A stretch of 58,199 nucleotides of DNA from Pseudomonadota bacterium (GTDB taxonomy: Bacteria; Pseudomonadota; Alphaproteobacteria; Geminicoccales; Geminicoccaceae): the NCBI GenBank assembly GCA_030549795.1, contig JAUQQO010000046.1, forward strand, positions 1 through 58,199. Reading direction: 5' to 3'. Positions within the stretch are counted from its first letter, which is position 1. Each line of letters opens with the position of its first letter. A model generated the notes under the pieces. It was given only the letters and a program-made list of their open reading frames with translations, made no database searches and was not told the DNA's origin. This document shows positions 37,489 to 44,570 of the stretch, one piece after another. The position numbers were made by a program, and so were the translations under genes.

Positions 37489-38516
37489 TCGGTGGAATCC
37501 TCGAACAATGTCGGCTGCTCGACGGTCGCCGGAGGGATGAGATCGAGATGCCGCCAAGCCGCGAGGGTGAGCATCCGCCCGCGCGGGGTTCGCCGCAATA
37601 GACCCTGCTGCAAGAGAAACGGCTCGACCACCTCTTCCAGCGTGTCGCGCTGCTCGGACAGTGCTGCGGCGAGCGTGTCGAGACCTACGGGCCCACCTCC
37701 GAACGCTTCGGCGATTAACCGTAGATAGCGTCGGTCGAGGGCATCCAGTCCGCGTTCGTCCACCTCGAGCCGCCGCAGAGCCCGGTCCGCCATCGCACGG
37801 TCGATCTTATGGACGCCCTCGACCGTGGCGAAGTCGCGCACCCGGCGGAGCAACCGGGTCGCCACGCGCGGGGTGCCGCGCGCTCGCCGCGCGATCTCGC
37901 GCGCACCATCAGCCGTAAGGTCGAGGTGCAAGAGCGCCGCACCGCGGCGTACGATCGCCTCCAGCTCCTCCAAACTGTAAAACTCGAGACGGCAGTGGAT
38001 GCCGAAACGGTCGCGCAGAGGGGTGGTGAGAAGACCAGTTCGCGTCGTCGCGCCGATAAGGGTGAACGGGACCAGCGCGATGCGTACCGAGCGCGCGGCC
38101 GGCCCTTCGCCGATCATGAGATCGAGCGCGCGATCCTCCATCGCCGGATAGAGGATCTCTTCGACCTGAGGCTGTAAGCGGTGGATCTCGTCGATAAAGA
38201 GAACATCGCGCGGCTGGAGGTTCGTAAGAAGCGCCGCGAGATCACCGGGTCGCGCGATGATCGGTCCACTCGTCATCCGAAAGCCGACGCCGAGTTCGGC
38301 AGCGACGATCTGTGCGAGGGTGGTCTTACCCAGCCCGGGGGGACCGGCGAGCAACAGGTGGTCGAGGGCTTCTTGCCGTGCGCGGGCGGCTTCGACGAAC
38401 ACGGCGAGATTGGCTTTAAGCCGCGTTTGGCCGATGAACTCGGCGAGCCTTTTGGGCCTAAGGCTCTGATCGAGGTCGTCGGCGCGCGCCTCGGGACTGA
38501 CGATGCGGTCACTCAC
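37485..38516 (-). CDS. ruvB: Holliday junction helicase motor RuvB
   Basis: A 343-residue AAA+ hexameric motor that drives branch migration with RuvA. Walker A is GPPGLGKT at 58-65; Walker [10 protein letters not shown], the sensor region [18 protein letters not shown] and the C-terminal winged helix ([24 protein letters not shown]) are all present. The GTG start at 38514-38516 overlaps the ruvA stop as GTGA. Confidence 0.97.
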
Positions 38517-39121
38517 GGCGGTGCCAACTCCTTCAAGCTCTCGCGCAACAGAGCCTCAAGCGGGGCCCTCTCGGAAAGCCGCGCGCGCGCTCGCGCAAGG
38601 GCGGAGGCTGCTTCAGCGCGCGGAAATCCGAGCCGCACGAGAGCGGCCAAGGCCTCTGCGGCAACTCCTTGAGCGGTGACCTCAGCTGGCTGCTCGCGCA
38701 TCGGGGACGGGCCGGGCAGCTCTCTCACACGCTCGGCGAGCTCGGCGATCAGTCGCCCGGCAAGTCGCTGACCGACACCGGGTGCACGGGCTAAGGCTGC
38801 GCGATCCCGCGCGACGATCGCCGCTGCGAGCTCGTCCGGCGAAAAACAACCCAAAAGCTGCAACGCGAGCTTAGCTCCCACCCCCTGCACCCGCTGCAGC
38901 AGCCGGAACCAGATCCGCTCGCGCGCCTCGAGAAAACCGAAAAGGGCGATCGTGTCTTCGCGCACCACCGTCTCGATCCACAATTCGACCGTTTCGCCGG
39001 TGCGCGGTAGCTGTTGCAGGGTCCGGGTGGCGATGTACACGAGGTAACCAACGCCGCCCACGTCGAGCACCACATGATCCTCGCCGAGCGCGGCGATCCG
39101 ACCGCGCAAAAAAGCGATCAC
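38513..39121 (-). CDS. ruvA: Holliday junction DNA-binding subunit RuvA
   Basis: A 202-residue protein beginning [20 protein letters not shown], typical of the RuvA OB domain. It has two helix-hairpin-helix motifs ([17 protein letters not shown] and [16 protein letters not shown]) and a C-terminal domain ([20 protein letters not shown]) that contacts RuvB. The start is a GTG at 39119-39121 overlapping the ruvC stop as GTGA; an ATG further upstream would be inside ruvC. Confidence 0.95.
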
Positions 39122-39621
39122 GGGGCGAGCCCGCAGGCGGCGAGGCGCAAGGCGGTCGACTGGTGATGCGCATCGCAAATCGCCACCGCGAGAGCATCGG
39201 TGGCATCGAGCGGCGCCTCGCGCGCATGCGCGAGCAGGTGACGGACCATCATGGCGACCTGTTCCTTGCCCGCCGCTCCGGTGCCGGTGACGGCGCGCTT
39301 GACCGTGCGCGCCGCATATTCTGTCACCTCGAGCCCGGCGCGCGCGGCTGAAAGCAGCACGACGCCGCGGGCCTGTCCGAGCTTGAGCGATGAGGCGGGG
39401 TTGGTGTTGACGACCGTTTCCTCAACCGCCGCGCGGACAGGCGCGTGCGCGCCGATAATCGCCGAGAGCGCCTCGAACAGCACAACCAGCCGAACCGGCA
39501 GCGGATCGTCGCGGCGGGTGCGCACGACACCGCAATCGACAAGGCGCAATCCCTCGGGCCGGGCCTCGATGATCCCCCAACCCGTCACGCCAAGGCCCGG
39601 ATCGAGGCCAAGGATCCGCAC
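39118..39621 (-). CDS. ruvC: Holliday junction resolvase RuvC
   Basis: A 167-residue endonuclease that cuts Holliday junctions symmetrically. Catalytic carboxylates are in ILGLDPGLGVTG (Asp 7), AVEETVVNTNP (Glu) and LDATDALAVAICDAHH (two Asp). The start is a GTG at 39619-39621. It lies 12 bases after yebC and leads the ruvCAB unit, in the conserved yebC-ruvC-ruvA-ruvB order. Confidence 0.96.
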   Translation of the reverse strand: MRILGLDPGLGVTGWGIIEARPEGLRLVDCGVVRTRRDDPLPVRLVVLFEALSAIIGAHAPVRAAVEETVVNTNPASSLKLGQARGVVLLSAARAGLEVTEYAARTVKRAVTGTGAAGKEQVAMMVRHLLAHAREAPLDATDALAVAICDAHHQSTALRLAACGLAP

Positions 39622-39633
39622 CGGCTCGATCCC

Positions 39634-40374
39634 TTAAGCAGAAAGCCGTTGCAGCGCTCGTTCCGAGACTTCGAAATTCGCCGTTACCCGCTGCACGTCG
39701 TCATTCTCGTCGAGCGCTTCGAGAAGCTTGAAGAGACTTTCCGCGCGCTCGTCGTCGACCGGCACGGTGACCAGAGGACGCCAGCCGAGATAGGCCTGAT
39801 CCGGCGGACCGAAGCGACGTTCAAGGAAATCGCGTACGTTTGCGAGCTCATCTGGAGCGCAGGTGATCTCGTGCCCCTGCTCGCTGCTCGAGCAATCCGT
39901 AGCCCCGGCTTCGATCGCCGCCTCGAGCATTTCCTCAGCGCTCGCCACCTCTGGTCGGTAGTGTACGATGCCCACACGGTCGAACTGGAAGCTCACGCTG
40001 TTGGTCTCGCCCAGGCTGCCGCCGAAGCGGCTGAAGGTGGCGCGGATCTCGCTAGCCGTCCGGTTGCGGTTGTCGGTCAAGGCCTCGACGATGATCGCCA
40101 CACCACCGGGGCCGTAGCCTTCATAGCGCACTTCCTCATAGTCCTCTCCGCCGGCGCTGCCGCGGATGGCCCGCTCGATGTTTTCTTTGGGCACATTTTC
40201 CGACTTACAGGCTTGGATGGCGGCGCGCAGCCGAGGGTTGTGCGCCGGGTCGGGCAGGCCTTGGCGGGCCGCTACCTGCACTTCGCGCAGAAGGCGGGTG
40301 AACTTGCGCGCGCGAGCCGCGTCCTGGCGGCTCTTGCGGTGCATGATGTTCTTGAACTGGGAATGACCGGCCAT
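39634..40374 (-). CDS. yebC: YebC/PmpR-family translation or transcription factor
   Basis: A 246-residue protein with the invariant N-terminus [20 protein letters not shown], then a middle [23 protein letters not shown] and C-terminal P-rich end. The family includes regulators such as PmpR and, in recent work, ribosome-associated factors for proline stretches. The ATG at 40372-40374 is fixed by this N-terminus. It is the first gene of the leftward run through the ruv genes. Confidence 0.96.
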
Positions 40375-40842
40375 GCTCGCTTTCGACGCTGGTTCGACGC
40401 CGCCGTCGATGTAGTCAAGATCGCCCGCCTTCGCCACCCATTCGATCGCCCGCGCAAGGCTGGGGCGGCGGCGACCGCGCAGCTGTCGCGGCACGAGCTT
40501 CGGCCCGACTTGCTGCGGTGCGCAACTAAGAGGCGAAGAGGCGGTTCCGGAACCTCCGGCGCATCCGCTCCCGACTCGCGGCATGCTTGTGGGAACCTCA
40601 ATCGCGTAAAATTGATGAAAAATTCATTGGATATATCGCAATGATATCCTCGTATCGTACACGATTGATCACTGGATGTTTGTTTTCCCTCTTGTCATCG
40701 CGATGTTCTCAACGTATGGTTGTGGCCGTCAGTCAGACGGTGCCTCCCTCCCTCCCTGGCCCCCGCCGGCCCAGCCACGCGGGGGCGCTTTTTTGGGGAG
40801 CCTGAAACGACGGGCCGCGAACGAGAACAGGAAGGAACCATC
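40375..40842. other. Intergenic region between yebC and the hslVU unit, AT-rich with orphan terminator
   Basis: This 468-base stretch separates divergent genes. About 40600-40700 is conspicuously AT-rich compared with the rest and probably carries promoters. On the plus strand CTTGTC (40691-40696) and CGTATGG (40713-40719), 16 bases apart, weakly resemble an alphaproteobacterial heat-shock promoter, which would suit hslVU. The strong terminator at 40759-40794 follows. A 72-codon frame at 40587-40805 overlaps the terminator and looks non-coding. Confidence 0.6.
40759..40794 (+). terminator. Perfect intrinsic terminator in the leader of the hslVU unit
   Basis: GCCCCCGC at 40759-40766 pairs exactly with GCGGGGGC at 40779-40786, with a 12-base loop; GC and six T residues follow (40789-40794). 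Rightward transcription would end here. No rightward gene lies upstream, since yebC points left. It therefore ends either a small RNA of roughly 80-150 bases or acts as an attenuator ahead of the 82-residue protein and hslVU. Confidence 0.8.
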
Positions 40843-41091
40843 ATGACCGTCAGCCCGACCAGCTCGCTCGACCTCGATTGGCAGGATCCCACATTCGAGA
40901 GCTGCGAAGCCGATCCGAGCACCCTTTGCGCGCAATTGCGCGCCGAGCTGCGCGAACTCGAGCCGGTGGTCTCGGCGGCAACGCTCGTCACCGTGGCCTT
41001 CCGGATGCGCGATGAAGCTGGGCTCGTCGCCGCTCTTCGGGTCCTCGCAGGCGCGGTCGATACCCTCGAGCGACAGCGACGCCCCGGCTAA
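40843..41091 (+). CDS. Small acidic protein of unknown function ahead of hslVU
   Basis: An 82-residue protein starting at the ATG at 40843 with a good ribosome binding site (AGGAAGGAA). The first 30 residues are acidic and polar (SSLDLDWQDPTFESCEADPS) with Cys at 21 and 28. The rest predicts two helices (LCAQLRAELRELEPVVSAATLVTVAFRM and LVAALRVLAGAVDTLERQRR). No signal peptide or known domain is recognised. It sits 138 bases upstream of hslV in the same direction and behind the terminator leader, so it may be a co-regulated small stress or adaptor protein; this is speculation. Confidence 0.7.
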   Translation: MTVSPTSSLDLDWQDPTFESCEADPSTLCAQLRAELRELEPVVSAATLVTVAFRMRDEAGLVAALRVLAGAVDTLERQRRPG

Positions 41092-41229
41092 GCGCCGCTT
41101 TTCGGCCTTGAACGCGCCGGTCCAAGCGCCACATCCTCCGCGCGTATCATAGCGGCAGGACTGGCGGCTCGGTTCGGCCATAAGGCGAACCACGAGCGCT
41201 GTCCGCTGCGCGCGAGCGGGGGCGGGCGC

Positions 41230-41778
41230 TTGGAGCAAGGCGGTTGGCACGGTACGACGATCCTCTCGGTCCGCCGGGGCCGGCAGGTGGTGATGGCGGG
41301 CGACGGCCAGGTCAGCCTCGGCCAGACCATCGTCAAAGCCAACGCGCGCAAGGTCCGACGTTTGGGGCAGGGGCGCATCCTCGCCGGCTTCGCGGGGTCG
41401 ACTGCCGACGCGCTTACCCTGCTCGAGCGCTTGGAAGCCAAGCTCGAGCGCCATCCGGGTCAGCTCGTGCGTGCCTGCGTCGAGCTCGCTAAGGATTGGC
41501 GCACCGATCGCTATCTCAGGCGGTTGGAAGCGATGATGGCGGTCGCCGACGCCGAGACCTCACTTGTCATCACCGGAGCGGGTGACGTTCTCGAACCCGA
41601 GGGCGGCCTCATCGGCATCGGCTCGGGCGGGCCTTATGCGCTTGCGGCTGCGCGCGCGCTTCTTGAAGCGACTGAGCTCGGAGCAGAAGAGATCGCGCGG
41701 CGCGCGATGCGCATCGCAGCCGGAATCTGTGTCTACACCAACACCGAAGTCACCATCGAGGTACTCGACCTACCGTGA
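41230..41778 (+). CDS. hslV: ATP-dependent protease peptidase subunit HslV
   Basis: A 182-residue proteasome-like peptidase. After a short propeptide the catalytic Thr is T9 in [12 protein letters not shown], followed by [15 protein letters not shown] and [21 protein letters not shown]. The start is a TTG at 41230, which gives the alphaproteobacterial propeptide form. The stop overlaps the hslU GTG start as GTGA. It forms a double hexamer gated by HslU. Confidence 0.94.
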
Positions 41779-43082
41779 CCGCACTTACGCCACGCGAGAT
41801 CGTCTCCGAGCTCGATCGCTTCATCGTGGGCCAAGAGGCGGCCAAGAAAGCGGTGGCCATCGCGCTGCGCAACCGCTGGCGTCGTCAACAGCTCGACGAG
41901 AGCTTGCGTGAAGAGGTGCTGCCGAAAAACATTTTGATGATCGGCCCCACGGGCTGCGGCAAAACCGAGATCGCGCGCCGTCTCGCGCGCCTCGCCCAAG
42001 CTCCGTTTTTAAAGGTCGAGGCCACCAAGTTCACCGAGGTCGGCTACGTTGGCCGCGACGTCGAGAGCATTATGCGCGATCTCGTCGAGGTCGCGATCAA
42101 GATGACCCGCGAGCGCATGCGCCGCGAGGTGGCGGCCCAGGCCGAGCGCAACGCTGAAGAGCGGGTTTTGGACGCTCTCGTCGGGCCGGCCGCCGGATCC
42201 GAGACGCGAGAAAAGTTCCGCCGTATGCTGCGCGCCGGTGTTCTCGCCGATCGCGAGATCGAGATCGAGGTTCAAGAAACCGCAACTGGTATGCCCACCT
42301 TCGAGCTGCCGGGGATGCCAGGCGCCCACATGGGCGTCATCAATCTCGGCGAGATGCTCGGGCGGATGTTCGGTGGCCGCACCCGCCGCCGCAAGATGAC
42401 GGTTGCCGAATCCTACCGCGTCTTGATGGCGGAAGAATCGGACAAGCTCCTCGACCAAGACAAGGTCATCCGCGACGGCATCCAGGCGGCCGAACAGTCG
42501 GGTATCGTGTTCATTGACGAAATCGACAAGATCACCGCGCGTGAGGGTCGGATCGGCGCCGACGTCAGTCGTGAAGGGGTTCAACGAGACCTTTTACCGC
42601 TCGTTGAAGGAACAACGGTAACGACCAAGTATGGTCCAGTGCGCAGCGATCACGTGCTGTTCATCGCCTCGGGGGCTTTCCATCTGAGCAAGCCTTCGGA
42701 TCTCCTGCCGGAGCTGCAAGGACGGCTACCCATCCGGGTGGAGCTGCAGCCCTTGGGCCGAGAGGATTTGCGTCGCATTCTCGTTGAACCCGAGGCGAGC
42801 CTGGTGCGCCAATACACCGCGCTCATGGCAACGGAAGGAGTGCGCTTGGAGTTCACACCTGAAGCCCTTGATGAGATCGCTGCGCTCGCGCACGAGATCA
42901 ATCAGCGAGTCGAGAACATCGGCGCCCGACGGCTGCAGACGGTCATGGAGCGCCTGCTCGAGGACATCAGCTTCACAGCTTCCGATCGCAGCGGCGAACG
43001 CATCGTGATTGATCGCGAATACGTGCGCCGGCAGATCGGCGAACTGGTCAGTGCGACCGACCTCTCTCGGTTCATCTTGTAA
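41775..43082 (+). CDS. hslU: ATP-dependent protease ATPase subunit HslU
   Basis: A 435-residue AAA+ unfoldase with Walker A GPTGCGKT at 57-64, the intermediate domain (about residues 110-240), Walker [12 protein letters not shown] and a C-terminus ending in SRFIL, the tail that docks on HslV. The GTG at 41775-41777 overlaps the hslV stop. The paired unit is often heat-shock controlled; the leader upstream may serve this. Confidence 0.96.
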
Positions 43083-43166
43083 GACCGCACGCGAACGCGC
43101 ACCAGAACAGCTGCGCGGACCATTGAGCACGACACGTCCTGCTATGTTCCCAATCGGAGCGCGTCC

Positions 43167-44570
43167 ATGATGTTCGTGAGCACGCGCGGGCGTGCCGGCC
43201 GGCGCAGTTTCGAAGACGTTCTTCTCGCCGGATTGGCCGAAGACGGGGGGCTCTTCCTGCCCGAGCGGTGGCCGGAACTCGGACGCGATCGGCTGGCGGC
43301 ACTCGATGGTGCCGATTACCCTGCGACCGCGGCAGCTGTGCTCGCGCCGTTCACAGAAGGGTGTTTCTCTGAGGCCGAGCTCGAAGCGATGGCGCGAGAG
43401 GCTTATGCCGGGTTCGCGCATCCGGCGGTTGCACCATTACGCCAACTCGATCCGCGCCTTTGGCTTCTTGAGCTCTTTTTCGGGCCCACGCTCGCCTTTA
43501 AGGACTTTGCGCTCCAGCTGCTCGGCCGCATGTTCGAACGCGTGCTCGCCCGCCGCAGCTCGGAAATCACGATCATAGGCGCGACCTCGGGCGACACCGG
43601 CTCGGCGGCCATCGCGGCGGTGGCGGGTCGCGCGCGGATGCGCATCGTCATCCTCCATCCGCACGAGCGCATATCGCCGGTCCAGCGCCGGCAGATGACC
43701 ACCGTCGATGCGCCAAATGTGGCCAATATCGCCATTCGAGGGACATTCGACGACTGTCAGAACATCGTCAAGACACTCTTCAACGATCCACAATTGCGCA
43801 AGGAACTCAATCTTGCCGCTGTTAACTCGATCAACTGGGCGCGTATCGCAGCGCAAGCTGCCTATTATGTGTATGCGGGATTGCGCTTGGGTTGTCTTGC
43901 ACGACCGGTCGGCTTCTGTGTGCCAACCGGCAACTTCGGCGATGTCTATGCGGGCCACGTGGCGCGGCGGTTGGGCCTCCCGATCGACAGGCTGATCATT
44001 GCCACCAACCGCAACGATATCCTCGCACGGTTCTTCGCAAGCGGCGAGTATCGCATCGGGGACGTCGTACCCACCATAAGCCCGTCTATGGACATCCAGC
44101 TCGCCTCCAATTTCGAGCGCCTCTTGTTCGAACTCCTCGACGGAGATGGGCCAGCGGTAGCCGAGCTCATGGGACGCCTTAGCCGCGAGGGAGCCTTTCG
44201 CGTACCATCGGCGGTGCACGCGCGCGCTTGTGCGCTCTTCGCAGCCGGGTCGGCACGCGAAGAAGAGACAAAGGCGACGATCGCGCGCTGGTACGAGCGC
44301 ACGGCGGGTGCGGTCCTCGTCGATCCCCACACAGCGGTGGGCCTCGCGGTGGCCGAGCGCTTCGACCGAGGATCGGCACGCCCCATGGTCGTACTCGCCA
44401 CTGCCCACCCTGCCAAATTTCCCGATGCGGTCGCAGCAGCAACCGGTCGCCGACCCGAATTGCCGGTACATTTGCGCGATCTCTTTGCGCGTGAAGAGCG
44501 CTTTACCGTGCTTGCGGCTGATGCGACCGCTGTTGCTACCTTTTTGCGCACCTGGCACCCGAACCCATGA
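43167..44570 (+). CDS. thrC: Threonine synthase ThrC
   Basis: A 467-residue PLP enzyme converting O-phosphohomoserine to threonine. The N-terminus (FVSTRGRAGRRSFEDVLLAGLAEDGGLFLP) and the PLP lysine K112 in PTLAFKDFALQLLG are typical, with ATSGDTGSAAIAA binding the phosphate and VPTGNFGDVYAG near the middle. It is the long (class II, fungal-type) form. Two ATG codons stand in tandem at 43167 and 43170. Its stop overlaps the next gene's ATG as ATGA. Confidence 0.95.
   Translation: MMFVSTRGRAGRRSFEDVLLAGLAEDGGLFLPERWPELGRDRLAALDGADYPATAAAVLAPFTEGCFSEAELEAMAREAYAGFAHPAVAPLRQLDPRLWLLELFFGPTLAFKDFALQLLGRMFERVLARRSSEITIIGATSGDTGSAAIAAVAGRARMRIVILHPHERISPVQRRQMTTVDAPNVANIAIRGTFDDCQNIVKTLFNDPQLRKELNLAAVNSINWARIAAQAAYYVYAGLRLGCLARPVGFCVPTGNFGDVYAGHVARRLGLPIDRLIIATNRNDILARFFASGEYRIGDVVPTISPSMDIQLASNFERLLFELLDGDGPAVAELMGRLSREGAFRVPSAVHARACALFAAGSAREEETKATIARWYERTAGAVLVDPHTAVGLAVAERFDRGSARPMVVLATAHPAKFPDAVAAATGRRPELPVHLRDLFAREERFTVLAADATAVATFLRTWHPNP

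Follow-up and report, generated by a model that had tools for sequence, protein, structure and literature searches.

The window, the whole 58,199-nucleotide stretch of DNA analysed here, contains a divergent yebC gene, a predicted promoter, a predicted small RNA closed by an intrinsic terminator, a gene for a protein of 82 residues and the protease genes hslV and hslU, arranged as follows:

39634–40374, minus strand: yebC, the divergent upstream gene (domain search)
40692–40720, plus strand: predicted sigma-70-type promoter, TTGTCA-N17-TATGGT (pattern; same place in relatives)
40727–40794, plus strand: predicted small RNA of ~68 nt (start taken from the promoter, end from the T-run)
40727–40739, plus strand: weak 5′ hairpin, CGTC-AGTCA-GACG (fold prediction)
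40736–40756, plus strand: conserved GACGGTGCCTCCCTCCC and the following CCTCCC, a predicted mostly unpaired anti-Shine–Dalgarno stretch (alignment, fold)
40759–40794, plus strand: intrinsic terminator, an 8-bp G–C stem and six T (sequence, fold)
40843–41091, plus strand: gene for an 82-residue small protein, conserved in the family, with two predicted helices (open reading frame, profile, model)
41230–41778, plus strand: hslV (Proteasome domain)
41775–43082, plus strand: hslU (AAA domains)

The terminator is made up of a perfect 8-bp stem, formed by GCCCCCGC (40759–40766) and GCGGGGGC (40779–40786) around a 12-nt loop, followed by GC and six T residues (40789–40794). A strict scan, requiring a perfect 8-bp stem with at least seven G–C pairs, a loop of 3–16 nt and at least six T within 3 nt, returned no other site in the 58-kb window, and none at all in 100 dinucleotide shuffles, in agreement with the earlier note on this DNA, which had described an 8-base GC stem with six T residues. 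The 40759–40794 site is absent from the list of a generic terminator scan, probably because only loops of 3–8 nt were allowed there. As that note also stated, no rightward gene was found upstream, yebC being on the minus strand. Its description of the terminator as an ‘orphan’ had to be given up, as the element closes a predicted RNA of ~68 nt (about 40727–40794) behind a sigma-70-like promoter. The start codon that it placed 49 bases further on is present (40843), but belongs to the 82-residue reading frame and not to hslV, which starts at ~41230. The five further genomes of the genus all have both stem arms, so that the refuting observation named in that note, a stem missing from close relatives, was not made; at one locus of the same genus (L013) the arms are kept, but the predicted minimum-energy fold prefers another pairing. 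Across loci, the C5/G5 letters of the stem are mostly kept, and its loop and the preceding spacer vary.

The putative promoter matches the consensus at 9 of 12 positions, and the elements that had been read as heat-shock-like fit this sigma-70-type pattern. Taken alone, the match is no better than chance (1 such site in 38000–44000, 0.6 expected from shuffles), and what lends the prediction weight is the position of the promoter in relatives. There, 20 of 21 loci have a best-scoring pair with TTG at −35, a 17-nt spacer and a constant 16–17 nt to ACGGTGCC, in a scan that favoured a spacer of 17 by half a point; at the remaining locus (L202) another pair scored higher, and TTG-N17 is readable there too. 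The scores are modest: at least 8 of 12 in 15 of 21 loci and in 13 of 206 control windows, and at least 7 of 12 in all 21 loci, yet also in 51 of the 206 control windows.

The boundaries of conservation follow those of the predicted RNA. In a DNA search of 60 relatives with 40680–40850, matches outside the genus have their left edges at query base 45–52 (40724–40731), coinciding with the start site predicted from the promoter, and their right edges mostly at query base 114–125, near the end of the T-run (base 115), although two strong matches stop at base 90–91. A small RNA gene, one of the options raised earlier, is thus well supported, with non-genus matches extending from about the predicted start to about the T-run. 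The loci have in common an almost invariant GTCAAGTCAGACGGTGCCTCCCTCCC with a terminator behind it. When each of 11 genera is represented by one locus, the core CAAGTCAGACGGTGCCTCCCTCCCT is 89–96% identical and its surroundings 26–53%; the mean pairwise identities are 0.89 (8 nt) and 0.96 (17 nt) for the core, against 0.26–0.40 further upstream, 0.53 in the four bases before the core and 0.40 in the eight after it, identity inside the word ACGGTGCCTCCCT being partly built in, as similarity was used to find the loci and that word to anchor them. CAAGTCAG before the anchor word and CCC behind it lie outside the word, which is present in all 22 loci found by BLAST (L008–L029). Decayed copies are under-represented because the loci were found by similarity.

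The 5′ hairpin is part of the minimum-energy fold in 19 of 21 folded RNAs (not L201 and L025), and in 19 of the 21 the C-stretch has a mean unpaired fraction of 72% or more, the exceptions being L013 (0.27) and L025 (0.58). The window’s RNA with its flanks folds only a little better than shuffled sequences (z −1.67; 13 of 200 shuffles as good), and a 261-nt stretch has a z of −1.42 against shuffles. RNAalifold showed changes on both sides in 2 of 12 pairs, both in the terminator; covariation is uninformative on the 5′ hairpin, because the hairpin hardly varies. An Rfam search of the whole window gave no match at gathering scores, and a minus-strand match to malK-III (23.6 bits, gathering score 50) was taken as chance. 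No description of the RNA was found in the open literature searched. Judged by its sequence, the terminator-closed RNA appears to be a small regulatory RNA not previously recorded, with a start site in common with the small-protein gene.

A covariance model, R1, built from 22 sequences, detects the RNA at E < 1e-12 in 22 of 31 genomes of the window’s family, these 22 being its own training sequences. Allowing up to 3 mismatches, the 25-nt core was found in none of 381 sampled genomes of the class outside the family, in a scan that found 2 of 4 family members and missed the window’s own genome, which has one base fewer in the loop. R1 matches 37 of the 381 at E ≤ 0.01 (best, 37.1 bits); 12 non-family stretches, inspected by eye, resembled either terminators rich in G+C or RNAs of the alpha-R8 type, CCTCCCTCCC being shared by one of the 12 (L155). 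In the window’s own genome, the search for a second copy gave just a 16-bit model match (E 0.8) and short DNA matches at chance level. No match to the RNA was found in the plasmids searched, nor in the stretch of L091 examined.

The small-protein reading frame begins 25–52 nt past the T-run in 21 loci, representing 21 of the 22 RNA-bearing genomes, with start codons chosen by hand (distance at L027, 38). hslV lies downstream of the RNA in 12 of the 22 and was not found in the other 10 within the 1.0–4.2 kb downstream examined, so that the small protein, not the protease, is the steady neighbour. At L198 (G006), where hslV was not found, the small-protein gene is followed by a reading frame whose product resembles a YggT-type membrane protein.

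The small protein has a conserved end, SAA-LV-TAFRLRDE--LV-ALRRL--AV, and its profile matches 26 of the 31 genomes of the family and none of 29 others. In a sample of 289 genomes of the class the profile matched three members of the family, plus one other genome at a weak E of 5e-4, and among 80 hslV loci its sole match was L048, which carries the RNA. Pfam and NCBIfam gave nothing for the window’s protein, and other members have weak matches to various families, each in 1–3 of 21 members (best E, 4e-4); the RNA is linked to a small protein that fits neither a Pfam nor an NCBIfam family. A two-sequence AlphaFold2 model (mean pLDDT 78.7, pTM 0.55) predicts helices at residues 25–54 and 58–79, with a low-confidence start. 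RNA and small protein occur together in 21 of the 31 family genomes. One genome (G009) has a strong copy of the RNA (80.2 bits) without the small protein, five (G012, G014, G018, G022 and G027) have the small protein without the RNA, each with hslV and hslU following it, and four (G013, G015, G025 and G030) have neither, G015 and G030 being 70–74% complete. In G014, an GCCTCCCT stretch with a possible hairpin precedes the small-protein gene and is perhaps a decayed copy of the RNA.

An exact-pattern scan of viral contigs located the RNA core, letter for letter, in IMGVR_UViG_3300044825_003153 (70,942 bp), which encodes a major head protein, a head maturation protease, and tape-measure and central tail-fibre proteins, and is therefore a tailed phage:

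L232:331–400, equal to G412:C1:67879–67951: phage copy of the RNA (R1, 53.5 bits)

In this copy the core is followed by a strong hairpin with no clear T-run, and the small-protein profile had no match in the roughly half of the record examined. A second, weak R1 match (20.7 bits) lies 2.4 kb beyond. At the viral pattern matches L235–L244, no hairpin with a T-run was seen by eye behind the pattern. Separately, G031 has a looser look-alike, GACGCCTCCCTCCC with a terminator, adjoining a terminase small-subunit gene (L155); there, at ~1517 on the minus strand (G031:C40:32267–32325), GACTGACGCCTCCCTCCC and a terminator stand beside that gene. This look-alike is a possible prophage sRNA, and its pattern had no match in viral contigs.

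On balance, these features favour a trans-acting sRNA of the alpha-R8 kind, with a terminator that in addition restrains transcription of the small-protein operon, a reading that we consider probable, if by no means secure. An RNA of ~68 nt, about 40727–40794, would be made from its own sigma-70-type promoter and ended by the terminator. Its weak 5′ hairpin, exposed CCUCCCUCC and terminator with a U tail correspond to the layout of Hfq-dependent alpha-R8 sRNAs, and the C-rich stretch would pair with purine-rich ribosome-binding sites of other mRNAs, lowering their translation or stability. By read-through, the same promoter would feed the small-protein gene, and hslVU where linked, with the terminator setting the ratio of sRNA to operon mRNA; the promoter is probably shared, because the 25–52 nt after the T-run leave hardly any room for a separate one. 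The presence of the RNA in G009 and in the phage, where the small protein was not found, fits a function of the RNA itself. Against a trans role stands the small-protein gene, which adjoins the RNA in 21 of 22 genomes, as it would adjoin a cis element. Sites complementary to the RNA with up to 3 mismatches number 66 in its own genome, the RNA’s own locus among them, and the control, a reversed pattern, has 23; base or codon composition may account for the excess. The three best other complements (2 mismatches) were viewed and none was convincing as a target, the closest lying inside a long open frame.

The main rival, which we regard as rather unlikely, is that the RNA acts only in cis, its core and terminator being an attenuator or a protein-bound leader of the small-protein gene (and hslVU where linked), and the terminated RNA having no job. 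By sequence, the terminator does lie between the promoter and the gene that would be regulated, and the same gene follows 25–52 nt past the T-run in all but one of the RNA-bearing genomes; moreover, the five family genomes that have the small protein without the RNA keep the small-protein–hslVU unit, as would be expected of a leader that adds control but can be dispensed with. An attenuator, which the earlier note suggested for hslVU, is possible by position, though for the adjoining small-protein gene (21 of 22) rather than for hslVU (hslV in 12 of 22). One candidate for the alternative anti-terminator pairing that the note envisaged, between the C-stretch and the bases behind the T-run, was tested, and it reached at least 95% of shuffles in just 4 of 20 loci (L009, L200, L025 and L027, that of L027 being measured from a wrong T-run inside its loop). 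The result for this one pairing, the retention of the RNA in G009 without a small-protein match and in the phage, and the lack of an Rfam leader family at gathering score tend to speak against a purely cis-acting leader.

It is also doubtful that the RNA truly belongs, as a diverged member, to the alpha-R8 (mmgR/suhB, RF00519) family. According to the accessible part of the source (PMC12559287), the core 10-mer of alpha-R8 is defined as UUUCCUCCCU and lies, in the Caulobacter crescentus sRNAs SisA–D, behind a weak hairpin and before the terminator; this 10-mer mediates the pairing of SisA–D with the sponge CrfA and that of SisA with an mRNA; the usual neighbour in most species is a putative N-formylglutamate amidohydrolase gene. 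The order of parts is the same here, with a Rho-independent 3′ terminator seen in the sequence and a core predicted to be single-stranded after a weak hairpin. The exact 10-mer is absent from all 22 aligned sequences, which have GUGCCUCCCU instead (8 of 10 letters). The best RF00519 score in 10 of the 22 RNA loci, at a loose threshold, is 23.3 bits (L020), below the gathering score of 41, and the window itself has no match at E 10. Reciprocally, R1 picks up an alpha-R8-type locus of G007 (23.7 bits). Membership is further opposed by other loci in the same genome that outscore the RNA on RF00519, with 34.7 bits at most and thus also below 41; one of them, G000:C26:88007–88080 (29.6 bits), has the exact alpha-R8 10-mer. 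RF00519 at E 1 matches 12 of 14 control genomes (one over the cut-off), so that its weak matches in genomes of the window’s family are leads only. On this analysis, the RNA probably works like alpha-R8 and is not filed as a member. Four loci of the window’s own genome, L168–L171 (G000 C46:110545, C26:88007, C11:45638 and C46:477368), are further C-rich sRNA candidates, all below the RF00519 cut-off; C46:110545 has CAGACG and GCCTCCCT in common with the RNA at 40727–40794.

A leader peptide within the core, GUG-CCU-CCC-UCC (fMet-Pro-Pro-Ser), on whose prolines a stalled ribosome would govern the terminator, is very unlikely: all 23 loci, among them the phage copy, have GUG CCU CCC, and the accessible part of PMC12218461 describes attenuation by a C-rich leader reading frame in Sinorhizobium meliloti, but no Shine–Dalgarno sequence is visible ahead, the frame varies from 3 codons to open beyond 94, and the third codon positions are invariant (two of them covered by the anchor word of the loci). 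The RNA thermosensor or heat-shock attenuator for hslVU that had been proposed is not supported and is highly improbable. In its favour, hslVU follows the RNA in the window and in 12 of the 22 RNA-bearing genomes; against it, hslV was missing from the downstream sequence examined in the other 10, the promoter is of sigma-70 type, and conservation of the core and stem stops at the T-run, well short of any ribosome-binding site, over which no conserved structure was seen.

The reading of a terminator-closed, trans-acting sRNA can be extended more tentatively. It is possible, though the balance is against it, that a family-wide sRNA, acting in the alpha-R8 way with a core of its own, grew out of or into the leader of the small-protein–protease operon, and that a phage of this group took the RNA over, redirecting, mimicking or soaking up host CCUCCCU regulation during infection. 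The locus provides a sharply defined and testable candidate sRNA family, with a nearly unchanging core of ~25 nt and a phage-borne copy, in a little-studied alphaproteobacterial family; if the proposed functions are correct, one element would be both an anti-Shine–Dalgarno sRNA and an operon leader, and the use of alpha-R8-type regulation by phages would become testable.

The proposed arrangement has parallels in known systems. rnTrpL is a 5′-leader-derived sRNA ended by the leader terminator. With rnTrpL and with RZ, the RNA of a SAM-II riboswitch as described in the accessible part of its source, the predicted RNA would share the use of one promoter for a terminated sRNA and a read-through operon mRNA; it differs from both in that no leader peptide or known ligand-binding fold, and no Rfam match at gathering score, was found here. 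In S. meliloti, a C-rich attenuation element precedes a DUF1127 small gene and a short leader RNA is made, and in both cases the leader ahead of a gene for a small protein contains C-rich RNA; in S. meliloti, the element lies in a translated upstream reading frame and termination is presumed to be Rho-dependent (according to the accessible part of PMC12218461), whereas here the terminator is intrinsic and no upstream reading frame is supported. The closest layout is that of MmgR of S. meliloti, SisA–SisD of C. crescentus and the RF00519 suhB RNAs, which share with the predicted RNA a weak hairpin, an exposed CCUCCCU and a Rho-independent terminator. Further likenesses to alpha-R8 are the short length, the alphaproteobacterial host and, in some genera, several copies per genome at separate loci. 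In contrast to alpha-R8, the core here is GUGCCUCCCUCCC and not UUUCCUCCCU, the 5′ hairpin has its own conserved loop, (A)AGUCA, and the RNA lies within the leader of a small-protein gene, with yebC and that gene as its nearest neighbours.
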